IMG/VR virus record: IMGVR_UViG_3300009081_000021 | Span: 1 to 43,395 of that record | From: a virus | DNA: 43,395 nucleotides | Direction: 5' to 3' (one strand) | Shown here: positions 3,226-43,395 of the stretch, piece after piece | Position numbering within the stretch: position 1 is the stretch's first letter | Layout of the letters: every line of letters begins with the position of its first letter | Made by a program: the position numbers and the translations under genes | The notes under the pieces: generated by a model | Told to the model about the DNA's origin: nothing | Databases searched by the model: none | Seen by the model: only the letters and a program-made list of their open reading frames with translations

Positions 3226-6200
3226 CTATTCTATGGGAATGGTACGTTCTTCATTATAAATTTTGACATTTCGATCTTCATACTCTATAATATATTCTCT
3301 ATCCTCAAAGTATACATAATATGTACGCCCAATAGGTGTTAATAACTCTTCCATAAATAAAAATGGTGAAGTAATATACGGAATACCAAGTGAAATATCC
3401 TCAGAAATTAAAGCATGAAATTGTCCTATCGTAGGACTATCAAATATAACAGATTGAGTAGAAATATCCTCTGCTACAAGATCATGAGTTAATTCACTTA
3501 CTAAAATTGGAGTGCCAATTAGAATAGGTTGAGTGAAAATATCTTCAGATGATAATATATGACTTTGACCTATAGAAGGATTACCAATTGCAATAGGTTG
3601 AGTACTAATATCTTCTGAACTAAGAATATGAGTTTGACTTAAAGTCGGACTACTAAATATGACAGGTTCAGTATTAATACTTACAGCTGATAGAGCATGT
3701 CTCTGTCCAATGGATGGACTACCAAATATAACAGCTTCAGTACTAATATCTTCTGACTCTATTTGGTATGTTTGTCCTAAGGAAGGAGTAGCAAGTATAG
3801 CAGACTGAGTAGTAATATCTTCTGCTTCTAACTCATGTATAAGTCCACTACTTAATACTGGTTCTGTGAAAATAGCAGGTTCCGTAACTATCTCTTCTGA
3901 AGTTAAAGCATGTGTCTGAGTTAAAGAAGGACTTCCAACTACTACACTCTCAGTATTAATATCTTCTGATGATAAAGCATGTGTTTGATTTAAAGAAGGA
4001 CTTCCAACTACTACACTCTCAGTACTAATATCCTCAGAAACAAAAATATGAGTTTGGGCTAATGCAGGATTTCCAAGTACAGCATTCCCAGTATTAATAT
4101 CCTCGGAAGATAATACATGAGTCTGAGAAATGGAAGGACTTCCAAGTACAGCGTTCTCAGTATAAATATCTTCTGAGGTTAAATCATGAGTAAGACCAGT
4201 ATATAAGTTCGGTGCTTCTAATACCGCGTTCTCAGTATTAATATCTTCTGATGATAAAGCATGAGTCTGAGCAATAGAAGGAGTTCCAAGTATAGTACTC
4301 TCGCTACTTATATCTTCTGATGATAAAGCATGAGTCTGAGCAATAGAAGGAGTTCCAAGTATAGTACTCTCGCTACTTATATCTTCTGATGATAAAGCAT
4401 GTGTTTGACTTAAAGAAGGAGTTCCAACTACTACACTCTCAGTATTAATATCTTCTGACGATAAAGCATGAGTCTGAGCAATAGAAGGAGTTCCAAGTAC
4501 AGAATTCTCAGTAACTATCTCTTCAGAAGTTAGAATATGACTTTGACCTATCGTAGGACCCTCAAGAACTGCCGGAGGTGTTAGAATATCCTCACCAGTT
4601 AAGTCATATGTAGTCCCACTACTAAGTGTTGGGGCTTCCAAAACCGCAGTGGATGTTAGAATATCCTCTGAAGATATAACGTGTGTCTGAGCTATTGTTG
4701 GAGTATCGAGAACTGCTGCAGATGTTATAATATCCTCAGCAGTTAAATCATCGCCACTTACACCACCTACACCTTTAATTGATAAAGCTATAGTTGCAGG
4801 ATAGTTACCATAAAACTGCATTGTTGTAGTACCAGATACTCCAGCTTTATAACCAATACATACTTCGCATTGCAAAGCATAATCACTAGATATTTCAGTT
4901 TGTCCAGCACCAGATGGAGCTGGATTTCCATTACCAGTTTGGTAACTGTAACCAAATACAAGACAAAGATCATTTGTATCAGAAGAAAAAGACCCACTAG
5001 TTAATGTTTGCAAACCACCAGCACTTGTTGCCATTGCGACATCAACATCGCGGATCGGATCACTGCTCGTATCAACATCTTTTAACCATAAAAAGGCAAA
5101 GTTAAAACCCTCATCTGGAGTTTCTGTAGTCGTATAATCCCAAGCAAATGTCTGAGAACCAGCAGTAGGATTGTCAAGACGCCAAACTCCTATCCAACCA
5201 TGATTTCCGCTAGTCTCATAACTATCAATCACACGAACAAGTGTAAATGAATTTCCTCCAAGTGTTAAGGTATCAAAATTAGCATCTTGAATATTCTCCC
5301 ACCAGGCGCATACAAGTAAAACACAATCTGTATCAGTAGGAACCGTTATTGATTGAGAACCACTATTCAGAGCCGACGATATAAGACCGCGAGTTCCAGA
5401 CTGAGATGGAGGAGTACCACCACCTTGAGATGAAAGTGTTGGTGCATCCAAAACCGCAGGAGATGTAACAATATCCTCAGAAGATATAACATGTGTTTGA
5501 GTTAATGTTGGTGTTTCTAATACTGCAGCCTCAGTATAGATATCCTCAGAAGATATAACATGTGTTTGAGCTATCGTTGCTGCTTCTAATACTGCATTCT
5601 CAGTATAGATGTCTTCTGCTGTTAATGCATCAGACCCAGAACTTGTAAGAGTTGGCGCATTGAGAACTGCTACTGGTGTTACAATATCTTCGCTAGATAT
5701 AACATGTGTTTGTCCTATGGTTGGTGCATCAAGAACTGCCGCAGGTGTAACAATATCTTCGCTAGATATAACATGTGTTTGGGCTAAAGTAGGACTGCCA
5801 AGAACTGCTGCTGGTGTTACGATATCTTCACCAGTAAGATCATCATGTACTGGCGCATCTGGTAACTCAAATTCGAACCAACTTATACCAATAGCTCTTC
5901 TAGTTGAAGCACTACCACCAGATGGTGGGGAATCTAATCTCATTATGAGATTAGTAGGATCTGTTATAGTATTGGCTTCTGATTCAGATAAAGTCAAACT
6001 ATATGCAGTCCAAGTTCCAGTACAAGTTTTTTGAGTATCACTTTTAATCAAAGTGGTATTTTGATATAAAGAAACTGTACCATAAACTGCATTCCCAGCA
6101 CCATCTGGTGTTGTATTATTCAATTTTACTAGACGATAGCGAAATGTATGACCAGTTTTGGTAGTCGGTAGTTCGACATCTGATAAACCAGTTCTATAAA

Positions 6201-6330
6201 GAACAGTAGCATTTTCATTACCATAAACAAAGTCAGTATCACTAGCTGTGACTTCATCTATAGACGCATAAGTACCTCCTCCAATACCAGTACGTTCGAT
6301 GTCACTATCAGGTCTAGCATATTGAGCCAT
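3226..6330 (-). CDS. Giant repeat fibre-like virion protein
   Basis: 1,034 aa. Residues about 1-155 look like a beta-sandwich binding domain. About 26 units of roughly 23 residues follow, with the pattern (L/I)SSEDI.T..AVL..P(T/S)..QTH. They are interrupted around residues 310-530 by a second beta-rich domain ('SQSITVPTDTDCVLLVCAWW', 'GNHGWIGVWRL', 'ATIALSIKGVGG'). A short charged tail (FEDREYIIEYEDRNVKIY) ends the protein. Repeats of this kind usually form extended shafts carrying binding heads. The position between a decoration-type protein and the tail chaperones suggests an extended fibre on head or tail; which one cannot be told. Two adjacent repeats are identical at the DNA level. Confidence 0.7.
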   Translation of the reverse strand: MAQYARPDSDIERTGIGGGTYASIDEVTASDTDFVYGNENATVLYRTGLSDVELPTTKTGHTFRYRLVKLNNTTPDGAGNAVYGTVSLYQNTTLIKSDTQKTCTGTWTAYSLTLSESEANTITDPTNLIMRLDSPPSGGSASTRRAIGISWFEFELPDAPVHDDLTGEDIVTPAAVLGSPTLAQTHVISSEDIVTPAAVLDAPTIGQTHVISSEDIVTPVAVLNAPTLTSSGSDALTAEDIYTENAVLEAATIAQTHVISSEDIYTEAAVLETPTLTQTHVISSEDIVTSPAVLDAPTLSSQGGGTPPSQSGTRGLISSALNSGSQSITVPTDTDCVLLVCAWWENIQDANFDTLTLGGNSFTLVRVIDSYETSGNHGWIGVWRLDNPTAGSQTFAWDYTTTETPDEGFNFAFLWLKDVDTSSDPIRDVDVAMATSAGGLQTLTSGSFSSDTNDLCLVFGYSYQTGNGNPAPSGAGQTEISSDYALQCEVCIGYKAGVSGTTTMQFYGNYPATIALSIKGVGGVSGDDLTAEDIITSAAVLDTPTIAQTHVISSEDILTSTAVLEAPTLSSGTTYDLTGEDILTPPAVLEGPTIGQSHILTSEEIVTENSVLGTPSIAQTHALSSEDINTESVVVGTPSLSQTHALSSEDISSESTILGTPSIAQTHALSSEDISSESTILGTPSIAQTHALSSEDINTENAVLEAPNLYTGLTHDLTSEDIYTENAVLGSPSISQTHVLSSEDINTGNAVLGNPALAQTHIFVSEDISTESVVVGSPSLNQTHALSSEDINTESVVVGSPSLTQTHALTSEEIVTEPAIFTEPVLSSGLIHELEAEDITTQSAILATPSLGQTYQIESEDISTEAVIFGSPSIGQRHALSAVSINTEPVIFSSPTLSQTHILSSEDISTQPIAIGNPSIGQSHILSSEDIFTQPILIGTPILVSELTHDLVAEDISTQSVIFDSPTIGQFHALISEDISLGIPYITSPFLFMEELLTPIGRTYYVYFEDREYIIEYEDRNVKIYNEERTIPIE
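4243..4380 (-). repeat. Perfect 69-bp tandem duplication inside the fibre gene
   Basis: Bases 4243-4311 and 4312-4380 are identical 69-bp copies, each encoding one 23-residue unit (…SEDISSESTILG…). All other units have diverged. The identity suggests a recent unit gain by slippage or unequal recombination, a way to change shaft length in frame. Confidence 0.9.
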
Positions 6331-13307: not shown

Positions 13308-13760
13308 TTAACCATATAAATAATCTAACTCTTCTTGAAGACCTTTTGCCTCTTTAATTTTACCTTGACTTTTTAATCTTTGAATATCGGCTGTTGCTTC
13401 CTTAAATTGTTTAGCTTCGAACTTCTTGATCCTTGACTTTATAAAATTTTTACCAGATTTAATCAATGGATCATTAGCCATATCCTTTTTCCAATTTTTA
13501 TTATAAAGAAGCTTTTTTACTTTTTCACGATTTCTCTTACCTAATAATTTATTAACTTTTCTTCCGTCGGCACCTTTCGCAATGCTGGTTTTTCTAGAGT
13601 CAATATTTTTCTGATGAGCAGATCTAAAAGTTTTTCCAGAGTCAATATTTTTTTGTCTTTTTGATCTAAAAGTTTTTCCAGAGTCAATACTTTGTTGCCT
13701 TCTAGATCGTCCCCAACGCATTCCTAAAACACCGTAATGAGTTAAAACATTATCATTCAT
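13308..13760 (-). CDS. HYG-motif protein with internal repeats
   Basis: 150 aa and strongly basic. The N-terminus carries the element 'LTHYGVLGMRWGRS', known from many small phage proteins encoded among head genes. Residues about 22-58 are three tandem copies of a 14-residue unit (IDSGKTFRSKRQKN and variants), matched by DNA repeats at about 13590-13690. The rest is Lys-rich helix ending in 'KEAKGLQEELDYLYG'. A basic, repeat-bearing head-region protein could be packaged with DNA; that is inference. It lies 2 bp downstream of a second HYG protein. Confidence 0.75.
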   Translation of the reverse strand: MNDNVLTHYGVLGMRWGRSRRQQSIDSGKTFRSKRQKNIDSGKTFRSAHQKNIDSRKTSIAKGADGRKVNKLLGKRNREKVKKLLYNKNWKKDMANDPLIKSGKNFIKSRIKKFEAKQFKEATADIQRLKSQGKIKEAKGLQEELDYLYG

Positions 13761-13762
13761 AG

Positions 13763-14083
13763 TTATCCTTTTGCCTTAACTATTTTTTGTCCTAGTGCTA
13801 TTAGAGTTCCTAGAGAAGCAGCGAATCCAGTAACAGCACCAACCCCTTTCATTACTCCAGTTACCGCGTTTTTACCTTTTGTAACTCTAGAAGGATTTAA
13901 AGAACTATAATTTTTCTCTAAATTCAAACGTTTATTTAAGGTTGTTAACTCGTCATCCGAAAGCTCGCTAATATGCTTTTTCTTTAACGATCTTGCTCTA
14001 GAATGATCAGAAGAAACGCTCCTAGCTTTTCTTTTGCCCCAGCGCATCCCTAAAACGCCATAATGCTTTAAAAATTCATTCAT
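13763..14083 (-). CDS. HYG-motif protein with C-terminal membrane helix
   Basis: 106 aa. N-terminal 'LKHYGVLGMRWGKRKARS', then a basic helical stretch, and a glycine-rich hydrophobic C-terminus (about residues 72-103, 'GVGAVTGFAASLGTLIALGQ') that looks able to enter a membrane. The HYG element is shared with the next gene and, in divergent form, with the RNA-polymerase-like protein at 20348. A motif of this kind at the N-terminus of otherwise unrelated proteins suggests a targeting or packaging tag (inference). AAGGAG ribosome site. Confidence 0.75.
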   Translation of the reverse strand: MNEFLKHYGVLGMRWGKRKARSVSSDHSRARSLKKKHISELSDDELTTLNKRLNLEKNYSSLNPSRVTKGKNAVTGVMKGVGAVTGFAASLGTLIALGQKIVKAKG

Positions 14084-17332: not shown

Positions 17333-17662
17333 TCAGGTAGATATATTAATTTCTTTTGATCGATCTTTAAAAGTTGATGGGGTTACTTTTACATAGATGC
17401 CTAATATATTTAATTCAATTATTTCATCTATTCCCATTTCAAGGGCCAGTAACTGATCAACTTCAGACAATTCATGTGAATCTTTTACAATTCTTGCTAA
17501 ATAGTTTAATGAATTGTAATTGTGTGCGGTATCAAACTCATACCACTCACTGAATTGTGTAAACGGTGAGTAAGGATTATCTAATGTTGATAGCATTAGA
17601 TCACCATTACTATTAGTACTACTAAGATTACTATCTTCATCATCTTCTATATTATTAAACAT
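17333..17662 (-). CDS. Conserved hypothetical protein after the RNA-polymerase-like gene
   Basis: 109 aa. A Ser/Asn/Asp-rich N-terminus is followed by a compact region: 'SPFTQFSEWYEFDTAHNYN', 'LNYLARIVKDSHELSE', 'ALEMGIDEIIELNILGIYVKV'. I know this protein only as an unnamed companion of the RNA-polymerase-like gene in gut phages. It is 13 bp downstream of that gene with an AGAGGTG ribosome site, so a partner role is possible. No catalytic motif. Confidence 0.75.
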   Translation of the reverse strand: MFNNIEDDEDSNLSSTNSNGDLMLSTLDNPYSPFTQFSEWYEFDTAHNYNSLNYLARIVKDSHELSEVDQLLALEMGIDEIIELNILGIYVKVTPSTFKDRSKEINIST

Positions 17663-17675
17663 AGCTACACACCTC

Positions 17676-20348
17676 TTATTCTATAGCATTATATAGGGAG
17701 GATACTGAAATCCCTAAGGCATCACTTACTTCTGCTGGAGTGTAGCCATTTGCTAATAAAGCTTTAGCTCTACTAATTCTTGCAGGAGACAAACCTCTTT
17801 TATAGTTTGGCATAGCTCTTTGCTTAAGAGCTTTTAGGTCGGAGTTCTTTAGTATTTGTGATAGGGTATTATTACTAATAGCACCGGCTTGTATAGCTTG
17901 CCACTCCCTATCTGTAATGTCTATTATAGTCTTCTTAGCTTGGAATCTAGCACGTGCTGTTTCTAATGCTTGACCTTTAATCTTCTTAAGATCATCTGGT
18001 GTTAGATCCGGGTTAGCTTTCCTCTTAGCTGCCACTATCTTATTAGCTAAGAGCTGACTTTGTCTTTCAAGGGGTTTGTTTCTGATCGCAAGGGCTAGCT
18101 TATTATTAAGTACTTCTACTTCTTTCCTATAAGTTTCCTTTGCTGTGCGTGAATACTTTATAGCTGGGGTATTTAAATAGGAAAGACGAGCCTTATTAGC
18201 TAAGTTCTTTAAAGCATTGCCATGATCTGCATACACTGTCTCTATAGCCGTGCCAGATGAAAGTTTATGTAGATCATCTATCTCAGCTGATTTCTTACTC
18301 TTAGTAGTTCTCTTAACAACATTACCATTCTTATCTATATAGGTTTCGCCAGTTTCTTCATAAAGCCTTTTACCACTCTTTGGATCTATATAGACTCTTT
18401 TAGTTTTCCCTGTTTTAGGGTCCGTTATAAAACGACCTTCTTTTCTGAGGGGAACCCTAATATCAGAACCTGATTTAGATATCAAAGTTGATGCGCCAGC
18501 AGTTGGAGATCCTTGATATTTCTTTTTCAGATCCCCAATATTATTATCAAGATAAGACTGCTTCCAATTTAAATTATGCTTTTCGCTGTCGATCACGACC
18601 ATAGAATGTCTTACAGCTCTAGCAATTTCATCAAAGTTAGCCCCTTTGATAGTCATATCTGTAATAAGGTTACTTACATCACCCATTTTTAAATTCTTCT
18701 GGCCAACGCTTATCCTTTTCATTCCTTCGTGTGCAGGATAAGTCGTTTTTGGATCAAAGTCCTTTAAAGCCTTTAAAGATGGAGCAGTTTTTATATCACG
18801 ATTTTTATTTGGAATAACAATCACGGTGTCACCGTCAAAGTCTGCTCCAGATAAACGTTGAGCGACCTTTGGGTGAATTCCAATTGCATCTTTTGCATTT
18901 CCGATTAAACTTTTAGCTTCTTGGTTTCTATTGTTTACTTTTACTTCTGGAATTTCAAATATTCCACCATGCGGGTGACGAAGTAATACAACATTTTCTC
19001 CATCTTTATAATTTGGTGCATAAACTTCCCCTTCTTTTAAAGAAGTTATAGGAAGAATAACATGTGTGCTTTGACGTGGCATTGCAGCCGCTTTCAAATG
19101 AACAGCAGCTGAATCAGCACTATCAGCATAAGGTTCTAATAATGCTTTTCGAACGGCAGGATTAGTAAGAGACATAATCTCATCATATTCTTCTTCTTTT
19201 AATTTTAGTACTAATCCTAATTGTTTTTTCGCTAAGGCTGGAGTCTGTTTTGAGAGAATCTGAGAAGATAAGTTTCGTGACCATGTATCCCAAGATCCTT
19301 CTTCTCCACCACCTTCTTTATAACCAACCATATTCAAAACTGATAAATGTTCTTTGCCATCTTTTCCAATATAGTATTTTTGTCTTATTGTACTACCAAA
19401 TGGATTAGAAGGATCATCTTCCATTGTTTTAAATACTTTTTCTGGAGGGGTGCCTTTTGGTTTATTAACGTTATATACTATATCAACACCTTTTGGCATG
19501 TTATCATTATACATAGCCATGCCTTTCATATAATATTTTCCGTCAACAGCCACTCTAACTTGAGCATATTTCGCTTCGCCTAAGGAAATATCATCTACAT
19601 TCCTTCGCAATTCTAATACACCATCTTTATCCGAACCTCCATCTTCTTTATAACGTATCATTACTCTTTCACTATTAATACTTTTAGGAGGCAGAATTTC
19701 TTTAAATGTTTTACCACCATCTTCAGAAAAATTATTCGTTAAGCTTATTTGATCTCTATTCTTATAAACTTCTGAATATGGAGTTCCAGGAGGAGCCAGA
19801 ACTTTAATGGTGGTATATTTTCCTGTTCCGACTTGTTCAACTTGAATGTAATGAGTTGTATATCCTTGTTCTTCTAACATAGAAACAGCAGTATTCAATT
19901 TAGTTCTAGACACGCCAAGGTGTTGTTCTACTCCTGCTCCGATATCTATAAGCTTTTTATTATCTACAGCATCTTTCAAAACCATTGATGTGGTGGCTGT
20001 TTGATTGGCTTTTTCTCGCAAAGCAGGATCTAACAAAGATCTTACAGAAGACTCATTCTTTCCCATTCTTTTAGCAATGGCTGATGTTGAATATCCTTTT
20101 TCTTTTAATCTTAAAGCAAGAGTTACATCAGCTTCTCTATTCTCTGCTAATGCTATAGAACGTCTAGCTTGTAATTGATTTCTTGATATGCCAAGACCTT
20201 TTGCTATCTCCGTATCATTTAATCCTTGTTTTCTTAAATCACCAACATATCCAAGAAAACTTTTATTATCTTGATAAGGATCTTTACCGCTACCCCATGG
20301 ATAGCGGCCAGATCTTCTAGGAATGCCATAATGCTTTATCTCATCCAT
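17676..20348 (-). CDS. RNA-polymerase-like protein (double-psi barrel, DFDGD) with helix-turn-helix ends
   Basis: 890 aa. Residues 455-513 read '..VVLLRHPHGG' then, after about 35 residues, 'IHPKVAQRLSGADFDGDTV'. This parallels the RNA polymerase beta-prime core, where R.P, IHP and NADFDGD occur in the same order; DFDGD (503-507) would hold the catalytic metal. Similar single-chain enzymes exist in SP-beta (YonO) and crAss-like phages. N-terminal HYGIPRRSGRYPWGSG (6-21) is followed by two helix-turn-helix motifs (about 45-62, 88-106). A third lies at the C-terminus (about 868-888). I could not place a beta-type barrel with its lysines, so activity is inferred. Ribosome site AAGGAAGAG; overlaps the upstream nuclease. 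Confidence 0.75.
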   Translation of the reverse strand: MDEIKHYGIPRRSGRYPWGSGKDPYQDNKSFLGYVGDLRKQGLNDTEIAKGLGISRNQLQARRSIALAENREADVTLALRLKEKGYSTSAIAKRMGKNESSVRSLLDPALREKANQTATTSMVLKDAVDNKKLIDIGAGVEQHLGVSRTKLNTAVSMLEEQGYTTHYIQVEQVGTGKYTTIKVLAPPGTPYSEVYKNRDQISLTNNFSEDGGKTFKEILPPKSINSERVMIRYKEDGGSDKDGVLELRRNVDDISLGEAKYAQVRVAVDGKYYMKGMAMYNDNMPKGVDIVYNVNKPKGTPPEKVFKTMEDDPSNPFGSTIRQKYYIGKDGKEHLSVLNMVGYKEGGGEEGSWDTWSRNLSSQILSKQTPALAKKQLGLVLKLKEEEYDEIMSLTNPAVRKALLEPYADSADSAAVHLKAAAMPRQSTHVILPITSLKEGEVYAPNYKDGENVVLLRHPHGGIFEIPEVKVNNRNQEAKSLIGNAKDAIGIHPKVAQRLSGADFDGDTVIVIPNKNRDIKTAPSLKALKDFDPKTTYPAHEGMKRISVGQKNLKMGDVSNLITDMTIKGANFDEIARAVRHSMVVIDSEKHNLNWKQSYLDNNIGDLKKKYQGSPTAGASTLISKSGSDIRVPLRKEGRFITDPKTGKTKRVYIDPKSGKRLYEETGETYIDKNGNVVKRTTKSKKSAEIDDLHKLSSGTAIETVYADHGNALKNLANKARLSYLNTPAIKYSRTAKETYRKEVEVLNNKLALAIRNKPLERQSQLLANKIVAAKRKANPDLTPDDLKKIKGQALETARARFQAKKTIIDITDREWQAIQAGAISNNTLSQILKNSDLKALKQRAMPNYKRGLSPARISRAKALLANGYTPAEVSDALGISVSSLYNAIE

Positions 20349-20905
20349 AGCTCTTCCTTTACTTTTATATTTTCAATTATTTTGTCAAAGGAAATAATTT
20401 TGTCCATGATATATTCAATAAAGTCATCTTCTGGAATATGAACTAAGATTTCATCAAATTGATAAATTCTTAATTCCATTTCTATAGACTTAGGACTATA
20501 ATTATATTCTAAACAAAATAAAGCGGCGTAGACTTCTAGCTGATGAGGAGTAACAGGAGTTACACCTGTTTTGAGATCGTGAATACGTAGCAAATTCTTT
20601 TTAAAAGAAATTGCGTCTGCTGTTCCATAAGCATTGTCACTATAATATAGAACTTGTTCAGGGAACATCCTAAAACCAATAGCGTCATTGACGTACTGGT
20701 TAAGAGACTTTTTGCTTTTGGGTAACTTTATTCCTAATTCAATAGACCTTTTTGCAAAATCGTGTAACTCTGTTCCTTTTTGAACAGCTAAAAATTTAGT
20801 ATAGACACTACTTAACTTTATTTCTGAATAGTTGATCCAATGATATTTGGAACCACTAAGAAAAGCGTGCTGGCCTATTAGCGATGAATGCTTGTTGAAT
20901 TCCAT
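20336..20905 (-). CDS. Cas4/RecB-like PD-(D/E)XK nuclease
   Basis: 189 aa. The core 'YGTADAISFKKNLLRIHDLKTG' (about residues 93-114) gives the Asp of GTADAI and the D.K of HDLKTG, the PD-(D/E)XK signature. 'TPHQLEVYAALFCLEY' downstream supplies the Q...Y motif of RecB-like exonucleases, and 'KGTELHDFAKRSIELG' upstream supplies the motif-I His. Probable DNA end processing or recombination exonuclease. No Cas4-type four-cysteine cluster is visible. Overlaps the VRR-NUC gene by 50 bp and the RNA-polymerase-like gene by 13 bp, so the three form a coupled operon. Confidence 0.8.
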   Translation of the reverse strand: MEFNKHSSLIGQHAFLSGSKYHWINYSEIKLSSVYTKFLAVQKGTELHDFAKRSIELGIKLPKSKKSLNQYVNDAIGFRMFPEQVLYYSDNAYGTADAISFKKNLLRIHDLKTGVTPVTPHQLEVYAALFCLEYNYSPKSIEMELRIYQFDEILVHIPEDDFIEYIMDKIISFDKIIENIKVKEELWMR

Positions 20906-21170
20906 CCAACACCTCTTTCATATTTTCAGGATATACAAAACTTGCAAAAGACATATCATCTAAATAATCAACCCAATATTTTTGATTCGGCTGTCTTGGT
21001 GCATTGATCGATCTTTTAACTTCTAATGCTGCCCAGAAATATTTTTCAAAAAAAATTAAATCTGGGAATCCCTGAATGTAGTTCGGGTCGGTTTTTATTA
21101 CAACAGCACCAGGATATTTTCTTTCCAATTCTTTTATTACTCTGTGTTGAATGATTGATTCTCTTGACAT
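20856..21170 (-). CDS. VRR-NUC nuclease
   Basis: 104 aa from ATG 21170, which has TTGAAAGGAATCGG in front; an upstream in-frame ATG at 21224 lacks a site and would lie at the promoter. 'RESIIQHRVIKELERKYP', 'GFPDLIFF' (Asp), 'AALEVKRS' (Glu, Lys) and 'RQPNQKYWVDYL' (Gln) are the full VRR-NUC catalytic set. Stand-alone VRR-NUC proteins of phages resolve branched DNA or act as nickases. First gene after promoter P4 and upstream of a second nuclease. Confidence 0.85.
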   Translation of the reverse strand: MSRESIIQHRVIKELERKYPGAVVIKTDPNYIQGFPDLIFFEKYFWAALEVKRSINAPRQPNQKYWVDYLDDMSFASFVYPENMKEVLDGIQQAFIANRPARFS

Positions 21171-21222
21171 CCGATTCCTTTCAAAAAAGAAAGAAGATGA
21201 CCTTTTAGTCATTCTCCTCTCC

Positions 21223-21250
21223 ATTATAGCATATGTTTAGAGCGCGACTA
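21223..21250 (-). promoter_or_regulatory. Promoter P4 of the TCGC-CATA-TATAAT class
   Basis: Minus strand: TAGTCG (21250-21245), a 16-nt spacer CGCTCTAAACATATGC, then TATAAT (21228-21223). CATA starts at spacer position 10, as in four other copies. The -10 is also a perfect extended type (TATGCTATAAT). It starts inside the metalloprotease end and serves the nuclease and RNA-polymerase-like genes. Confidence 0.8.
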
Positions 21251-23502: not shown

Positions 23503-26500
23503 TCAAAGTCTGAATTCCTCGAAATTGACATATTCATTAATATGATCAATAGCCTTATCTGCTAATTCTCTATAATAATCCTGATCGATATTATCCTCCA
23601 TTCCTAAGGCTCTAACTGTTTCGGATTCCATCCAACGATATCCTTTAGTTCCTGAAACAGCATGATATTTTCCATCTTTTTCTCTTAATAGAATTCCTCC
23701 ACCAGTTTTAACAGGAACAAAAGAACCACTCTTCCCAATGAATATATAATTTGGTTTCTCATCATTACTATCCATATCAAGATAAAGAGCTGTTGTGACA
23801 GATTTGACTTCGCACAGATCAGCAAATTCAATTGGCTCTTTACTAAAAAGAGTTTTGAAAATATATGGATGCTGAAATTCTGCTCCCACGGCAATCCATT
23901 TACCAGATATATCTTTTGCTATGTAGACAGAATCATTTACAAGAAGAAATTTCTCATAGGTTGTTTCATGCTCAAATGTATACCCGTATTTTTTTCCAAA
24001 ATTGATAACAAAGTCAATTATCTCTTTTGTTGGGTTTGGGATCTTAATAGAATCTGTTTTAATATGAACAACTTGATAACCCTCTTCTTGCACCGCAATC
24101 TTTAAATCGATCATAAATAAGGAGCCTCTTTTTGCAACTATATTATCAACATTGCGAGGATCCCTAAATCTATTATCGAAAGAAGCAGATGTCAAACCAT
24201 AAACAATATTAATAATTATTTTCAATGCATATGCCAAATCAGCAGCATCTTCTGGAGAATTCAGATACTTTTCAAGTAATCCATTAAAACCTTTTCTTGC
24301 TTTGCTGAAGTCTTTATGCTTAATAGCAAGACGGACGTCGATAAGCTCCCGATATTTATCTGTATATTCCCCAAATAAATTAAGCAAAGATATAGAGCTC
24401 GGGTGCATAGATGCCACATCCAAAAGTGCAACGTTCTTGTAAAACCCACTTTCTGCATAGACGTACCCTCCTTCTCCAGTTTCCTCTCTTTGATAAAAGC
24501 TTTTTCCAGAGTCATAAGTATATCCTGGAAACATCTCACTAAGATCTGTATAGACGAACTTATCTTGAGGATGCTTGTCATTGCCAAATATAATTTTTGC
24601 AGTGTGCATTTGAGTTGTATCATTCACAGTCAAACCGCTAAGATCAGCAAGAATTTGACGAGCAACGAAATCTTGTTTACGATAATTAAAAACTGCTTCA
24701 GTACTAACAACATCATTATCGCAATAATCAATAACTGCTGGCCATTTATCTTCTGATACTTCCTTGTCAAAGGGGATTCCTAACTCATTATGATGGATGC
24801 CCAGCTCCAATTGAAACTTCTTCAAGCTCTGCTTAACTGATGAAAAGTCATAGACATCAGCATAAGATATATTATAAGCCTCATTAAAGAATGCTTTTTT
24901 ACGGTCTAGAATAATATCCGAACTCAACTTATATATCTCAGAATTACTATATCCAAGATATCTTGCATAAAGCATATGATTGTCATATCGACGACAATTA
25001 AAGCCTATTAATTTAAATTTTAATAGCTCTTCAATATCTTGGGGCGGGGGATTAATCATATGAATACATTTCTTATCTTCGCCTTCGTATTTCCAGCAAA
25101 CAAGAAATAGATTAGGAAATACCTCGACATCGAAAAAGACAACTCTATCATCTAAATAATTATTCTGGTTAACACTCGGCTCTTCTGAACTGAAATGCAT
25201 TTTGCTAACCAATTTAAGACAATAATCGGCATTGTTACTGCTTCTCATTGCAAATGTTAAAACCTTGTTCCGCATATCTCGGACATCATATGCTAGATCA
25301 GATTTATAAGCTTCCTCAAGTATAGTATAAATAAAGTCGATGCTTGGCTTTGTATATGGATGAATCTCTTTATTTAAGTTTCTTTGTATAAGCTCTCTAA
25401 GTCCTTTTTCACTTTTAACGGTTTCGAAATTTATCATTTTCGTTTTTTCTTTCTTAAGTGGTAAACCTGTAGAAATAGATGCTATAGGTATATTATTGCA
25501 TTTGGACAGTTTCCTTCTTAAAGAAGCCCCTCCACTAAAGATCTTAACTTCTATACCTTCTGCATAAATATTACTAAGCTTTCTAACATCCCCATCGTAA
25601 ATGTAATGAAGATGCAGACCCGCTTGGCTTTTACTATATTCTACATAAGTAGGAGGCCATTTAGTAGCTGCTTCCAAATTTAACTCAGAAGATTTGTTTC
25701 CCTCTTCATCTTTAATGTCAAAATCTATGACAATATGATCACCAGGAAGCTGGACATAATGAACTTTTGATGTGTCCAAATCTTTAAGAGTGGTTTGGAC
25801 GTCTTTCCACTTATCAGTAGGGATGCCTGATTCACCTGCATATTGTGCTGGGCAATCGGCTGCGTTCTCCTCAAAAATAGAAGGTACTTCTTCCAAAACT
25901 ATCCAACTAGAATTGACTTCTGGAATGGCTTTTTCGCTAACGGTAAACTTTTCCATCTTTAAATCAGAATAATAATTCCTAACTAATTTACCATCTAGCC
26001 TCTTCATCTCAGAAAAATTGTTAAAATAATTCTTCAACTCATCTCTAAACTTATATTTAGGAAGTTTATTAGCTATGGTTGCGTCATCACAATATTCTTT
26101 ATACAGAGTATAAGCTTGAGCTAAAGATACGCCACCCTGTTCGAGAAAAATATAATAGTAGTTTTCGACATAGTTGAAGAAAACATCAGTCTCAAATATC
26201 ATTCCCAAAGGTCTATAAGTAGCATAATAATTCTTCCCCATGGATCTATAGACTTTAAGACACTTCGAGGCTATAGCACCTAACTCAAAATCAATTCGCG
26301 ACATTAAGGAAAAATATTTAACAGTCGGCAACTTCTTTCCAGATGGTTTAACATCAATAAGTCTTCGAATTATTCCAGATTTTGCGTCCCCAATTTTAAC
26401 TGGTTTGTTTGTGGCAAGGAAGAGAAAACAATTAGCTCGAGCAGTATAGCTCGGCTTGTATTTCTCATTCATCACCATCTCTTCGTGAGATATGATTGAG

Positions 26501-27231
26501 TTGAGTTTTGTATTGTCTTCTATTCTAGAAAGATCACCATCATGCTGGAGAGCGACCAAAGGATTCGATCGGAAAACCTCAGTAGAAAAAGTATTGCTAG
26601 AACTAGTAAGAGCTTTAGCCTCAAAGGTCGTATAATATCCAGCAAACAACTTTTGAACTATATTTAGGAATGTGGACTTACCACTACCGCCCTCGCCATA
26701 TAGCACTATGAACTTCTGAATATCCTTTGCCTCGCCAGCAACGATAGACCCGAGAGCCCATTCTAGTTTAGTTCTCTCCTCAGGAGAATATAAAGTACTC
26801 ATCAATTGATCATAAGCATCACACTTATCATCGCTCAAAGAATACGGCAAACGTCTACTAACATAATCACTTTTCTTTACTTCTGTATTCTGAAAAGTTA
26901 AATGCTCATCTAGTTGGTGGGCGTTATCTGATATTCTTGATAAATAGTTTCTGTATTGCGTCCAAGCATTTGTACTGAAATCGCTCATAAATTTTACATG
27001 AATAACTTCATTCTTCTTCTCAATGAGTTTATTTCTATAATTCATTAAGTCAGCATCCATCAAACGTTGGACATCATATTCATCGGTTGACCATAACCCT
27101 TTCTCTTCATCCCAAATGGCATAAAAACTTTTAGCTCGAACCATAAGGTCCTTAGATCTTGTTACTTTGAAATCGGGATATATTTCTATAATCCCTTTAT
27201 TCGATCTTTCTTTTATTTGATAAAAATCCAC
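23503..27231 (-). CDS. Helicase - primase - family B DNA polymerase in one polypeptide
   Basis: 1,242 aa from GTG 27231 (AAAGGAGG 8 bases upstream). Residues about 130-330 form an SF3/D5-like helicase: Walker A 'GEGGSGKST' (179-187), 'LVALQHDGD' (225-233), sensor 'FLFLATNKP' (269-277), then 'GIIRRLIDVKPSGK'. Residues about 490-595 look like an archaeo-eukaryotic primase: 'VIDFDI' (Asp503, Asp505), 'SQAGLHLHY' (His540, His542), 'IEVKIFSGG'. Residues 697-850 are a 3'-5' exonuclease: 'FFDVEVFPN' (Asp701, Glu703), 'GFNCRRYDNHML', 'YCDNDVVSTEAVF'. Polymerase motifs A 'LLDVASMHPSSI' (Asp938), B 'KIIINIVYG' (1004-1012) and C 'HIKTDS' (Asp1060) follow. Motif C keeps one of the two family-B aspartates. 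Confidence 0.88.
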   Translation of the reverse strand: MDFYQIKERSNKGIIEIYPDFKVTRSKDLMVRAKSFYAIWDEEKGLWSTDEYDVQRLMDADLMNYRNKLIEKKNEVIHVKFMSDFSTNAWTQYRNYLSRISDNAHQLDEHLTFQNTEVKKSDYVSRRLPYSLSDDKCDAYDQLMSTLYSPEERTKLEWALGSIVAGEAKDIQKFIVLYGEGGSGKSTFLNIVQKLFAGYYTTFEAKALTSSSNTFSTEVFRSNPLVALQHDGDLSRIEDNTKLNSIISHEEMVMNEKYKPSYTARANCFLFLATNKPVKIGDAKSGIIRRLIDVKPSGKKLPTVKYFSLMSRIDFELGAIASKCLKVYRSMGKNYYATYRPLGMIFETDVFFNYVENYYYIFLEQGGVSLAQAYTLYKEYCDDATIANKLPKYKFRDELKNYFNNFSEMKRLDGKLVRNYYSDLKMEKFTVSEKAIPEVNSSWIVLEEVPSIFEENAADCPAQYAGESGIPTDKWKDVQTTLKDLDTSKVHYVQLPGDHIVIDFDIKDEEGNKSSELNLEAATKWPPTYVEYSKSQAGLHLHYIYDGDVRKLSNIYAEGIEVKIFSGGASLRRKLSKCNNIPIASISTGLPLKKEKTKMINFETVKSEKGLRELIQRNLNKEIHPYTKPSIDFIYTILEEAYKSDLAYDVRDMRNKVLTFAMRSSNNADYCLKLVSKMHFSSEEPSVNQNNYLDDRVVFFDVEVFPNLFLVCWKYEGEDKKCIHMINPPPQDIEELLKFKLIGFNCRRYDNHMLYARYLGYSNSEIYKLSSDIILDRKKAFFNEAYNISYADVYDFSSVKQSLKKFQLELGIHHNELGIPFDKEVSEDKWPAVIDYCDNDVVSTEAVFNYRKQDFVARQILADLSGLTVNDTTQMHTAKIIFGNDKHPQDKFVYTDLSEMFPGYTYDSGKSFYQREETGEGGYVYAESGFYKNVALLDVASMHPSSISLLNLFGEYTDKYRELIDVRLAIKHKDFSKARKGFNGLLEKYLNSPEDAADLAYALKIIINIVYGLTSASFDNRFRDPRNVDNIVAKRGSLFMIDLKIAVQEEGYQVVHIKTDSIKIPNPTKEIIDFVINFGKKYGYTFEHETTYEKFLLVNDSVYIAKDISGKWIAVGAEFQHPYIFKTLFSKEPIEFADLCEVKSVTTALYLDMDSNDEKPNYIFIGKSGSFVPVKTGGGILLREKDGKYHAVSGTKGYRWMESETVRALGMEDNIDQDYYRELADKAIDHINEYVNFEEFRL

Positions 27232-27252
27232 CGAAAAAGCCTCCTTTCAATG

Positions 27253-27572
27253 CTTTTGTTACGGAGTTACACCTTTTTGTAAAGAAAAACTCTATTTATA
27301 TTTTTTTCTTTTTTAAAGTTCTTAGGGTTCAAAAACGTAACTCCGTATACTTTTTGCCTTTTTTCACCATTTTTTTGAAATTTTACGCCTAAAAAGTCAA
27401 AAAAATAATGAAAAAACAGTATACACCTTTTTTTCAAGAACGTAACAAGAACGTAACTCCGTATACTTTTTTGTCAAAAAATGACACTTTTTCGAGAAAA
27501 AATTTTCATTTTTTTCTCGATTTTTTACAAAAAAAGTATACACTCTTCGAAGTCCGTAACAAAAGTGTATAC
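27253..27572. repeat. Iteron-like cluster, candidate origin
   Basis: GTATAC occurs at 27345, 27419, 27461, 27536 and 27567. GTAAC, in either orientation, occurs at 27258, 27266, 27337, 27442, 27453 and 27556. Larger units read GTATACGGAGTTAC (minus) at about 27350 and 27466, with GTTACGGAGTTAC at 27258. At 27435 an 11-bp unit (CAAGAACGTAA) is in tandem. A perfect 10-bp hairpin (27493-27502 with 27510-27519, CGAGAAAAAA) sits inside. Iterons, A/T tracts and a hairpin beside the replication protein fit an origin; some boxes could equally be operators of the operon promoter. Confidence 0.65.
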
Positions 27573-27585
27573 TATTTTGTAAACA

Positions 27586-27733
27586 TTTTCAGAGGGTAGA
27601 AAAGGGGATTCATCGTTTACAGTGTAAGCTGATTATCTTCTATATAAATTTTTTTGGGATTTTTGCAAATCACCCCAATAGAACAATCAATCTGCTCGAT
27701 ATTGGCACACGATATATTTCTACCCTCTGAAAA
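27586..27733. repeat. 17-bp perfect inverted repeat around 114 bases
   Basis: Arms 27586-27602 (TTTTCAGAGGGTAGAAA) and 27717-27733 are exact complements. Inside are small dyads: TTACAGTGTAA at about 27617-27627 (operator-like) and GATTT...AAATC around 27658-27671. On the minus strand it follows the last accessory gene. Could be a structured RNA, a transcript end or part of the origin. Confidence 0.8.
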
Positions 27734-27775
27734 CGGCAGTTTTGAGAACTCTGCCAAACTCCTTAGGCTGGTTTC

Positions 27776-33828: not shown

Positions 33829-33858
33829 CTTTATCTCCTTTTCATAGGTTAGTATTCT

Positions 33859-33886
33859 ATTATAGCCTATGATTTTGCCGCGAAAA
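33859..33886 (-). promoter_or_regulatory. Promoter P3 of the TCGC-CATA-TATAAT class
   Basis: TTTTCG (33886-33881), spacer CGGCAAAATCATAGGC (16 nt), TATAAT (33864-33859), then AGAA. Begins at the last codons of the upstream 63-aa gene. Drives the 93-aa membrane gene. Confidence 0.82.
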
Positions 33887-34565: not shown

Positions 34566-34598
34566 TTTTTTCTCCTTTTAAGAATATAGTTGGTTTCT

Positions 34599-34626
34599 AT
34601 TATACGATATGATTTTGCCGCGAACT
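34599..34626 (-). promoter_or_regulatory. Promoter P2 of the TCGC-CATA-TATAAT class
   Basis: AGTTCG (34626-34621), spacer CGGCAAAATCATATCG (16 nt), TATAAT (34604-34599), then AGAA. Lies immediately after the DUF6353-like copy B stop and drives the 57-aa membrane gene. Confidence 0.82.
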
Positions 34627-35797: not shown

Positions 35798-35834
35798 TAT
35801 CCTCCTATTGTTTTAAAATAGGGTTAGTATTTCT

Positions 35835-35862
35835 ATTATATCATATGTTTTTCACGCGAAAA
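35835..35862 (-). promoter_or_regulatory. Promoter P1 of the TCGC-CATA-TATAAT class
   Basis: TTTTCG (35862-35857), spacer CGTGAAAAACATATGA (16 nt), TATAAT (35840-35835), then AGAAA. Its upstream box overlaps the T-run of the terminator at 35859. Extended -10 (TATGATATAAT). Confidence 0.82.
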
Positions 35863-36156: not shown

Positions 36157-36170
36157 AATTTTCTCCTTTC

Positions 36171-36198
36171 ATTATATGCTATGTATATAATGCGAGGA
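36171..36198 (-). promoter_or_regulatory. Promoter P5 of the TCGC-CATA-TATAAT class
   Basis: TCCTCG (36198-36193), spacer CATTATATACATAGCA (16 nt), TATAAT (36176-36171), then GAAAGG. Most divergent copy in the spacer but with CATA at the same place. Directly after the holin stop; drives the 85-aa gene with a very short leader. Confidence 0.75.
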
Positions 36199-40379: not shown

Positions 40380-43300
40380 ACCAATCCTTTCAGAGCCATA
40401 AGTTGGTTTCTCGTTTGTCTATAAATTTCTAATCTCGATAAAGATTTTGGTGAATAGTTATTTTGAGTGTAATTAACTACATTACCAGCAGCTGCTAACT
40501 TCTCAGGAGAAATATCAATAGGTCTCAAACCAGTAGATATATTTCTGCTAATATCTACAGGAGAAGCCAAATTTATATAATTTCCAGAAATTAATTCTTC
40601 TATTGATTTCTTTCCAGAAATAACGTCAGTTAAATCTACTACTGGTCGAATTACTGGATTGGAATCGATATTGCCAGATAAAGCCTCAGTAATAGTTGCT
40701 ATAGCCGGTCCCATGGCATCTACAGCTCTTTTTTCTAGTTTATGAACAGCTTCCGTAACTCTATTTTTGAGATGTAGAATGCCCTTAGCAAAACCTTCAG
40801 GAATGGACTCGCCAATTTCCATAAATACTTTGGATGGAGAGTTAATTCCTAATTGTTCTTTAATAGCATTAATAGCAGCTGTAACAATACTACTAAGAGC
40901 AGTCAAGACGGCTTTAGCTCCATTTGAGATGGCTGTAACTAGTGCAGTAATAATAGATTCACCTAGTCGTCCTAGGGCCGCTAGTAATGGTTCGGTATTG
41001 TTGTCAATTGCATCTGCCATCCCATTAATAAAATCAATAATTAAATCTACACCAGCTTGTATAACGTCCCCAACATTATCACTAATACCACCTAGAAATT
41101 CAGTAATAATTTCTGTTGCAACAGTTACAACTTCATAAATATTATCTCGAATTCCTTCCAAAAATCCTATCAGAATATCGAACCCTGCTTGAACAAAAGC
41201 TGGGATATTAGCTGCTATTTCTTCCAATAATGTTGTAAGTAATGTTATTACAGCTGAAACAAAGTCCGGAACGACATCAACAATAAGTTGAATCAGGCCC
41301 TTTAATAGTATAGTAAGAGCTTGCAAAAGCTTCGGAGTAACTTTAATGATAATATCAAGAACGCCCATGAGCAAAGCAGTAATTGCAGCTGCTACAACTG
41401 GTGCAGCAGCAACTATACCTTCCCCAAATATAATTATTGTATCTATAAGCGTCTTAATAACCAATGGAATGATACCCAATATAGTAGATATCATTGCAAC
41501 AATAGCAACTGCTGCAGCTGCGCCAGATACAGCAATAGCTGCCAAGCCCATAGAAAATGCAAGTAAACCAGCACCAACCAGCATCGCAGCAACACCTATC
41601 AACATCATAGAGACACCAAGACCAAGTAGTGTCGGTATAACTGGTGTTAATAAATATCCGGCAATTGCTAGAAGTGCAAAGACACCGGCAAGTGCTAATA
41701 AAGCTATTCCTATCTCAGCTATACCCATAGCTCCTAAAGTTGATAAAACCGGAGCTAGTACAGCAAGAGCACCTGCTGCAATCAATAAAGCTGCACTACC
41801 TGCCAAAGTACCACTCATTGCATATAAAGCAACCGTTAATATAAGTAATGATCCAGCAAGAGCCGCAAGACCTTTTCCAATCTCTTCCCATGTCATACCG
41901 CCCATACTAGCTAAAGAATCAGAAAGAAGTAATATAGCCCCTGCAACAGCCACTAAACCCAAACTAGTAATAATCATATTCTTAGGCATAAGATTCATAG
42001 CAGCTACAATGATTAATAATGCAGCTCCCATAGTAAATAAACCTCTACCTATTTGAGTAGGATCTAATGCGCCAAGTTTAGTTATAGAATCTACTAATAG
42101 CATGATGGCGCCAGCTATGATAACCATGGCTATACCAGTGGCTATTAGTCCAGCACCGCCACTACTTAATTGAGTAAATAGAGCCAATTCTAGTAAGACA
42201 GCACCAAGAGCTATAAGACCTTGCTGTAATTTTGCCTGGTCCATCTCAGCAAATTTTCCAACTGATTCGGACATAAGCATAATTGATCCAGCAAGCAAAG
42301 CTAACCCAATGCCTTTAGTTATACCCATCTTGTCAAGATCTACTAACTTCATAAATGCTGCTATCTCAGCAAGCATTACGCCAACACCAATTAACCCGTT
42401 AGTTAACTCAGCAGGATCTAAGGCGCCTAATTTTGCTACTGATGACGTCAGTACAAGCAAAGCAAGACCAAAAGCTATTAACCCTACAGAACCTTTAAGA
42501 ATGGATCCTGTATTCTGAGACATTACTCTGCTAAGTATCACCATCCCAATAGACAAAGCTGTAATAGCACCTAGACCTCTGTTTAATTCTTCAGCATCTA
42601 ATTTTCCTAGCTTTGATAGAGCAGCCGACATTATCATAATAGATACAGACAAAGCAACTAAACCCGCTGATGCAGATAAGGCCCCAAGACCAGTTCCTGA
42701 TACTTTACTAAATACAGCCATAGAGCCCATTAATTGGAGCATCATAGCTGTAACAGCGCCAAGAGAAACCGTTAGTTTAGCCGAATCAATCCCAGATAAA
42801 ACTAGCAAAGACAAGGTTAATACACCAATAGCTCCAGCAATAGTCAATAAAGTATTAGCTTTTAGATTTTGCTGCCAAGCTTGTAAACTGCCTCTAACAC
42901 CATCCAAAATACCAGAAATATCTCCAAATACTCCCCCTGCTTGGTCAATAAAACCAGATCCGGATGTGATAAAGTTTCGAATTGCTAGTAATATACCAGC
43001 AATAAGTCCACTATTGATCAAATCAAATATCTTTGAGAAATCTGCTTTAACAATGGAATCAATGATGGAAGAGCCAAGATTCAAAAAGAAAGTCCCGATA
43101 GCGCTAGCCAATTTAAAGAATGTTGGAGCTATTTTCTTAGCCAGATTAGCGAAACCTCCTAGTACTTTACCTACCCCAGTAAACAAAGCAGTTAAAGGTT
43201 TGAAACGGAAGTTCATCTTATCGAAAAGACCATCTATTGCACTTGTATCGACATTATCAAAAATACCAGAAAATAGTCCTTTAAACTCCTCAAATTTAGA

Positions 43301-43395
43301 CTTGACAGTATCAATAAATCCAAACACTTTTGACTTGACGGTATCTGCTGTGGTACCTATGGTCTGCATTGCTGTGTCAAAAATGTCCCAAATAT
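40376..43395 (-). CDS. Tape measure protein, C-terminal part
   Basis: This is the remaining two thirds of the 1,501-aa tape measure. It is dominated by repeated hydrophobic, Ala/Gly/Leu-rich helices of about 35-40 residues. A recurring pattern, 'LGALDPAEL...GL..(I/L)G..', marks repeat boundaries. Such segments are typical of tape measures that later form the membrane channel for DNA entry. The C-terminal part has the common 'GINSPSKVFMEIGESIPEGF' element. The stop codon overlaps the start of the Dit gene (ATGA), so the two are translationally coupled. The bases near 43369 are not a true start; the frame continues from the other window end. Confidence 0.93.
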   Translation of the reverse strand, partial: IWDIFDTAMQTIGTTADTVKSKVFGFIDTVKSKFEEFKGLFSGIFDNVDTSAIDGLFDKMNFRFKPLTALFTGVGKVLGGFANLAKKIAPTFFKLASAIGTFFLNLGSSIIDSIVKADFSKIFDLINSGLIAGILLAIRNFITSGSGFIDQAGGVFGDISGILDGVRGSLQAWQQNLKANTLLTIAGAIGVLTLSLLVLSGIDSAKLTVSLGAVTAMMLQLMGSMAVFSKVSGTGLGALSASAGLVALSVSIMIMSAALSKLGKLDAEELNRGLGAITALSIGMVILSRVMSQNTGSILKGSVGLIAFGLALLVLTSSVAKLGALDPAELTNGLIGVGVMLAEIAAFMKLVDLDKMGITKGIGLALLAGSIMLMSESVGKFAEMDQAKLQQGLIALGAVLLELALFTQLSSGGAGLIATGIAMVIIAGAIMLLVDSITKLGALDPTQIGRGLFTMGAALLIIVAAMNLMPKNMIITSLGLVAVAGAILLLSDSLASMGGMTWEEIGKGLAALAGSLLILTVALYAMSGTLAGSAALLIAAGALAVLAPVLSTLGAMGIAEIGIALLALAGVFALLAIAGYLLTPVIPTLLGLGVSMMLIGVAAMLVGAGLLAFSMGLAAIAVSGAAAAVAIVAMISTILGIIPLVIKTLIDTIIIFGEGIVAAAPVVAAAITALLMGVLDIIIKVTPKLLQALTILLKGLIQLIVDVVPDFVSAVITLLTTLLEEIAANIPAFVQAGFDILIGFLEGIRDNIYEVVTVATEIITEFLGGISDNVGDVIQAGVDLIIDFINGMADAIDNNTEPLLAALGRLGESIITALVTAISNGAKAVLTALSSIVTAAINAIKEQLGINSPSKVFMEIGESIPEGFAKGILHLKNRVTEAVHKLEKRAVDAMGPAIATITEALSGNIDSNPVIRPVVDLTDVISGKKSIEELISGNYINLASPVDISRNISTGLRPIDISPEKLAAAGNVVNYTQNNYSPKSLSRLEIYRQTRNQLMALKGLV
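43273..43395. repeat. Terminal overlap, right copy
   Basis: Exact second copy of bases 1-123. It marks the closure point of the circular genome inside the tape-measure gene. A real direct terminal repeat would not be expected to sit in the middle of a coding frame. Confidence 0.95.

Follow-up and report, generated by a model that had tools for sequence, protein, structure and literature searches.

The window, the whole stretch of 43,395 nucleotides analysed here (IMG/VR record IMGVR_UViG_3300009081_000021), is a complete, terminally redundant viral genome with a 123-bp direct repeat (1-123 = 43273-43395) and a G+C content of 37%. Its minus strand carries an intact reading frame of 890 residues (ATG start, no internal stops) that is matched by the phrog_4291 profile with 1246 bits over residues 2-889 of 890, that is, as a full-length member. 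We refer to the product as the RNA polymerase (RNAP). The gene, its operon and the separate primase-polymerase gene of the window are as follows.

21219..21247, minus strand: promoter-like element (TCGCGCTCTAAACATATGCTATAATGGAG), directly before the nuclease-exonuclease-RNAP operon
21183..21212, minus strand: short hairpin and T-run right after the operon element, candidate leader terminator or attenuator, from the leader sequence
20856..21224, minus strand: VRR-Nuc-like endonuclease, first gene of the RNAP operon (phrog_93; gene order as in HotFries and Mudcat)
20336..20905, minus strand: RecB/Cas4-like exonuclease, overlapping the RNAP start (phrog_3953, 1.6e-75)
17676..20348, minus strand: predicted RNA polymerase gene (phrog_4291), 890 aa, from homologs, profile match, and AlphaFold2 model with Foldseek
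20286..20339, minus strand: N-terminal tag, residues 4-21 (IKHYGIPRRSGRYPWGSG), near-invariant in the family and predicted disordered
20031..20258, minus strand: two N-terminal helix-turn-helix (HTH) domains, residues 31-106, the second matching sigma-70 region 4 models (Pfam, model)
19854..20003, minus strand: winged-HTH-like domain, residues 116-165 (Pfam HTH_24 at 143-163; model helices and strands)
19461..19568, minus strand: candidate beta-type barrel strands with R265, K275 and K296, residues 261-296 (conservation and fold match)
18828..18845, minus strand: predicted catalytic ADFDGD, residues 502-507, of the beta-prime-type barrel, invariant in 95 sequences
17682..17801, minus strand: C-terminal HTH, residues 850-889 (Pfam, model)
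17333..17662, minus strand: small conserved protein directly after the RNAP, counterpart of 1706 orf76 (phrog_4303)
23503-27231: primase-polymerase, separate from the RNAP (phrog_4210)

The order VRR-Nuc endonuclease, RecB/Cas4 exonuclease, RNAP and small phrog_4303 protein, beside the late genes, is kept among relatives. Because the called ATG of the VRR-Nuc gene lies inside the promoter-like element, its true start is probably at 21170 (ATGTCAAGAGAA), after the leader hairpin; the gene calls of relatives may share the same start error (21170-21224, minus strand). Elsewhere in the window, about 500 bp just upstream of the primase-polymerase gene (27250-27735) have no convincing genes and hold repeated GTATAC and ACGGAGTTACG boxes with long inverted repeats, a candidate replication origin. 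A 1034-aa protein (3226-6330, minus strand) contains many copies of a 69-nt (23-aa) repeat, SSEDIVTPAAVLxAPTLxQTHVI, and is possibly a surface-exposed head or tail decoration.

The RNAP belongs to a large family. A tblastn search found relatives in 250 GenBank phage records, 249 of them near full length and about 39-55% identical to the window protein (all below 60%), a homology that is, as judged from sequence, far beyond chance. The hosts of these phages include Arthrobacter, Gordonia, Streptomyces, Lactococcus, Curtobacterium, Microbacterium, Rhodococcus and Faecalibacterium, among others. Beyond GenBank, relatives were found on at least 518 contigs of IMG/VR and on 135 of GTDB. Family records are mostly labelled only "helix-turn-helix protein" or "RdRP", and the PHROG name for phrog_4291 is RNA-dependent RNA polymerase. 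Six RNAP contigs (G006, G024, G034, G035, G040 and G052) show a second partial, or split, RNAP profile match, possibly inserts or decayed copies.

The first-pass annotation had proposed a single-chain RNAP with built-in DNA-reading domains, citing R.P, IHP and ADFDGD in the order of the beta-prime catalytic core. R457-x-P459, I491 and A502-D507 are indeed found at these residues, and R457, P459, H460 and A502-D507 are invariant in an alignment of 95 diverse relatives. IHP, however, is not a conserved motif: only I491 is kept, while H492 and P493 vary. The AlphaFold2 model of the full-length protein (pLDDT 86, pTM 0.76) matched QDE-1 first in the PDB (E 4e-9), followed by the phage RNAPs P32 gp64 and P74 gp62 and by plant RDR2. 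A model of the core (residues 222-640) matched QDE-1 (E 2.6e-11, TM 0.55 over the query) and RNAPs of the P23-45 type (E about 2e-9). The core also aligns with beta-prime chains of cellular RNAPs, including bacterial ones, over about 140 columns at 3.2-3.5 A. Together with the invariance of ADFDGD, these alignments place the DxDGD motif of the two-barrel (DPBB) superfamily in the beta-prime-type barrel. In addition, 37 of 49 family members matched Pfam RdRP (PF05183; best 3.9e-6).

For the beta-type barrel, three conserved residues stand out: R265 and K275, both invariant, and K296, which is kept in at least 90% (invariant in A3). All three lie in or beside predicted strands, within a core that aligns over its length with QDE-1, and they are candidates for the basic substrate-binding residues, named from their position rather than from superposition. 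K286 (MPKG) was rejected as a beta-type lysine, as relatives have D or E there. A PDB sequence search with the RNAP gave no polymerase match above noise; the only exception was a weak match of a tape-measure protein chain (8h2n) to the DFDGD stretch (E 0.53). No match to a T7-type single-subunit RNAP appeared in Pfam, NCBIfam or PDB sequence searches. The model matches and the Pfam RdRP hits support the proposed single-chain, two-barrel enzyme with DNA-reading domains. The fold is well supported by modelling, and the protein very probably catalyses RNA synthesis.

HTH domains do occur at both ends of the protein, as the annotation had claimed from three motifs; their number is four, at residues 31-62, 71-106, about 116-165 (winged) and 855-889. 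Pfam detected HTH_23 (7e-14) and Sigma70_r4_2 at 71-106 in the N-terminal part and HTH_7 (5e-9) at 850-886 in the C-terminal part, and the AlphaFold2 model added the HTH at 31-62 and the winged HTH at about 116-165. Small-terminase models weakly match the C-terminal HTH.

The annotation had also suggested that these domains could recognise a class of promoters in the same DNA. The D9 repeat was the starting point for finding five promoter-like sites in the window, all on the minus strand, with the first C of CGC at 36194, 35858, 34622, 33882 and 21246. Their scores were 24-36, compared with a maximum of 14.5 in shuffled sequence. In addition to the operon element, they comprise the following sites.

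36167..36195, minus strand: promoter-like element, early region (element scan)
35831..35859, minus strand: promoter-like element, early region (repeat and element scan)
34595..34623, minus strand: promoter-like element, early region (repeat and element scan)
33855..33883, minus strand: promoter-like element, early region (repeat and element scan)

These four precede small genes that follow directly on the tail genes, in the presumed early region, and no element was found at the late genes of the window. Across the family the element reads T-CGCR-N6-ACA-N4-CTATAAT-RGA, with both CGCG and CGCA variants, a variable -10 part and no -35 box. The same element occurs in Arthrobacter phage Mudcat and a TATAGT variant of it in Lactococcus phage 1706; similar sites were found in Mudcat, 1706, HotFries and BitterVaud1. 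Among phages of Streptomyces, Arthrobacter, Bifidobacterium, Lactococcus and Faecalibacterium, the spacing of CGC-N-N6-ACA-N4 is constant and the -10 parts diverge (TATAAT, TATAGT, TTTATG), being degenerate in Firmicutes phages (CTTTTATG). Such drift of the -10 part with constant upstream spacing, and the absence of a -35 box, argue against a plain host promoter.

The exact pattern CGCG-N6-ACA-N4-CTATAATRGA was scanned against the whole IMG/VR collection and matched at least 119 stretches, compared with zero matches in the same collection when the spacer was lengthened by 1 nt (N7). Among exact-element contigs of 15 kb or more, 34 of 43 encode the RNAP in full or in part, and six of the nine others carry hallmarks of the lineage (its DNA polymerase or DUF7211). 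The consensus of 82 distinct sites is T-CGCG-NNAAAA-ACA-TANN-CTATAATAGAA; for 67 of these, a ribosome site and an open frame come within the next 230 nt (median gap 44 nt). Only 4 of 23 RNAP viral contigs contain an exact match; with up to 3 mismatches, 70 sites were found in 18 of the 23, and the backwards pattern gave 1. Most telling is the position relative to the RNAP gene: the element lies upstream in 133 of 149 distinct RNAP loci, at a median of 939 nt, which is just before the operon, whereas the reverse strand had it in 1, reversed sequence in 0 and the downstream side in 3 of 67. A hairpin with a T-run comes after the element in 76 of the 133 loci, compared with 19 random windows taken from these regions, which suggests a leader that is attenuated or short. 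Locus L158 has two or more tandem copies of the element with a GATACGC/GCGTATC hairpin ahead of the RNAP operon. The element is absent from 23 YonO-type phages. Searching oengus, Mudcat and BitterVaud1 for motifs without a preset pattern returned mostly terminators or ribosome sites, and the element was seen there only by directed scan.

These results uphold the element as a conserved feature of the RNAP family that precedes the RNAP operon, and they lend indirect support to the suggestion that the RNAP itself could read it. Because the element model was derived from sites picked by the exact pattern and the phages share ancestry, the co-occurrence of RNAP, tag and element is by itself no proof of such reading, and because many copies contain TATAAT, the ordinary bacterial -10, a host enzyme with a phage activator could read them. 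Nevertheless, we consider that the RNAP, rather than another factor, probably reads the element. In the open-licence literature we found no paper on the promoters of this RNAP family.

The N-terminal tag and the evidence for a virion location go beyond the first-pass annotation. The tag, HYG-x4-SGRYPWGSG, is among the most conserved stretches of the RNAP family, and residues 1-28 are predicted to be disordered (pLDDT about 38 for residues 1-20). A tag that is conserved yet disordered bears the mark of a short binding motif. A motif of related form, LxHHGVKGMKWGVRR of DUF7211 (PF23847), heads proteins encoded in the head region of RNAP phages, 1-5 per genome fragment. Two are found in the window.

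13308..13760, minus strand: DUF7211-tagged protein (LTHYGVLGMRWG), head/packaging region (PF23847 4e-8; phrog_35934 virion structural protein 5e-4)
13763..14083, minus strand: DUF7211-tagged protein (LKHYGVLGMRWGKRK), head/packaging region (PF23847 3e-11)

The first of these contains three tandem 42-nt repeats (13588-13704, minus strand). In loci L019-L164 the DUF7211 motif tops otherwise different proteins (within the first 40 residues in 114 of 124), which lie mostly downstream of the RNAP and near packaging genes. When 105 RNAPs were scored with a model of the DUF7211 motif, the best match fell inside the first 60 residues in 100 of them, with a top score of 8.8 bits compared with -1.1 in reversed sequences; for single sequences the resemblance is weak, 8.8 bits being the best. 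Pfam DUF7211 did not match the window RNAP at E up to 1, and accordingly we call the RNAP tag DUF7211-like in form and not a member. Tag residues showed no clear co-variation within genomes.

Host tallies are almost equal for the 245 phage records with the DUF7211 motif and the 250 with the RNAP. Seven DUF7211 contigs exceed 50 kb, and the RNAP is encoded on all of them, truncated by the contig end in one case. In the record of Lactococcus phage 1706 (EU081845), both orf75, the RNAP, and orf7, which has two DUF7211 motifs, are entered as 'structural protein'. The RNAP homolog gp106 of ReqiPoco6 is named after 1706 orf75. The structural protein annotation of 1706 is reportedly based on mass spectrometry. 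Against packaging counts the position of the RNAP gene, which adjoins nuclease genes outside the virion cluster. On balance, we find it fairly likely that the RNAP is packaged in the virion. No paper on DUF7211 was found in the open-licence literature.

An active single-chain RNAP could instead be made after infection, stay unpackaged and act on later genes in the manner of YonO, leaving the early genes to host RNAP. YonO transcribes SPbeta late genes (PMC5467207), yonO likewise lies near late genes as the present gene does between replication and late genes, and the early elements of many phages contain TATAAT. This arrangement is nonetheless unlikely given the structural entry for the 1706 homolog, the clustering of elements at early genes and before the RNAP operon with none at the late genes of the window, and the drift to TATAGT or TTTATG in elements that have no -35 box. 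We are similarly doubtful that host RNAP with sigma and a conserved phage activator reads the element and that the phage polymerase has another job. A perfect TATAAT in many copies and the further small HTH proteins encoded by some of these phages would fit such an activator; the same spacing in phages of five host genera, the degenerate -10 in Firmicutes (CTTTTATG), the element before the RNAP operon in 133 of 149 loci, and the four HTHs of the RNAP, one matching sigma region 4 models, do not. It is very improbable that the protein is an RNA-dependent RNA polymerase or a primer-making enzyme of replication, as its PHROG/RefSeq name would have it: the best structural match, QDE-1, has been solved with RNA and with DNA templates and the gene adjoins nucleases, but the phage has a separate primase-polymerase (23503-27231, phrog_4210), and the fused HTHs and upstream element fit transcription from duplex DNA. 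Least probable of all is a catalytically dead fold serving as a DNA-binding regulator or packaging factor, for which the four HTHs and the weak small-terminase match could speak, since all 95 diverse members aligned retain the catalytic aspartates and the R/K residues.

Taken together, the results are best read, with somewhat better than even confidence, as a virion-carried single-chain RNAP that reads these promoters, promoter recognition and packaging being the inferred parts. We propose that the protein is a single-chain, two-barrel, DNA-dependent RNAP of an ancient type, whose beta-prime-type barrel would hold the Mg-binding DFDGD and whose beta-type barrel would supply the candidate substrate-binding residues R265, K275 and K296. 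The three N-terminal HTH modules and the one C-terminal HTH fused to this core probably stand in for a sigma factor and would bind the CGCR/ACA/TATAAT element before the early genes and before the RNAP's own operon; many copies would then lead into a short terminator-like leader. The disordered tag has a form shared with the DUF7211 proteins, whose genes adjoin TerL and portal, and probably serves to bring the RNAP into the particle. The packaged RNAP would enter the cell with the DNA, start early transcription without host sigma, and also drive its own operon.

For the group as a whole, the chances seem about even that small siphophages, mostly of Gram-positives, package a sigma-independent one-piece RNAP by a tag shared with other injected head proteins, that one promoter code (CGCR-N6-ACA-N4-CTATAAT-RGA, with its variants) has stayed with this RNAP across bacterial phyla, and that the RNAP drives its own operon. 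The polymerase is not a lone curiosity but one of a large family that has been little described and for which a promoter code can be predicted and a packaging tag is probable. Hundreds of sequenced phages, many isolated on Arthrobacter, Gordonia and Streptomyces, have the gene annotated as 'HTH protein'. Should it be a virion RNAP whose promoters are known, these small phages would offer a tractable model of sigma-free promoter finding by a minimal two-barrel polymerase. They would also provide a compact tool for transcription from a predicted promoter, and a DUF7211-like tag whose role in packaging injected proteins can be tested.

Phrog_4291, 1706 orf75 and the 'putative RNA polymerase' of Faecalibacterium FP_oengus all belong to one group, of which the window protein is an ordinary full-length representative. 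In the literature searched, the tag, promoter class and virion role of these proteins were not found; they appear as database names only. YonO of Bacillus phage SPbeta, a demonstrated DNA-dependent RNAP that transcribes SPbeta late genes (PMC5467207), is the proven single-chain relative in kind. It too is a single chain (about 840 aa compared with 890 aa here) in which R-PH precedes DxDGD, and it is encoded near late genes. Direct kinship by sequence, which the first-pass comparison with YonO might suggest, turned out weak: there is no overall sequence match, and the YonO alignment gave hhalign Prob 3.6 and E 0.012, though with R-PH and DxDGD in register, over the catalytic region only. A single-sequence hhalign match to YonO was discarded as a chance stretch. 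Moreover, YonO lacks the HYG tag, SPbeta-type phages lack the promoter element, and YonO is reported for late genes.

QDE-1 and the plant RDRs (PF05183) provide the best structural match over the core, and 37 of 49 RNAP members match their Pfam family, but they are eukaryotic RNAi enzymes with 10-14% identity. HTH ends like those of the phage RNAP are not known from the QDE-1/RDR family. Virion RNAPs comparable to the one proposed here occur in crAss-like phages and in Thermus phage P23-45 (PMC10770324; PMC10172136). The virion RNAP of crAss-like phi14:2 (6vr4) is likewise a one-chain, two-barrel enzyme, but it has 2166 residues in the solved chain, matches weakly in structure (E 3.7e-3) and belongs to another phage group. 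The gp64 nvRNAP of P23-45 and its vRNAP fused to the tape measure protein are compact two-barrel phage RNAPs that match in structure with E 2e-9 and have promoter motifs of their own (PMC10770324). Whereas the virion form of P23-45 is fused to the tape measure, the window RNAP is free-standing and carries HTHs and a tag at its N terminus.
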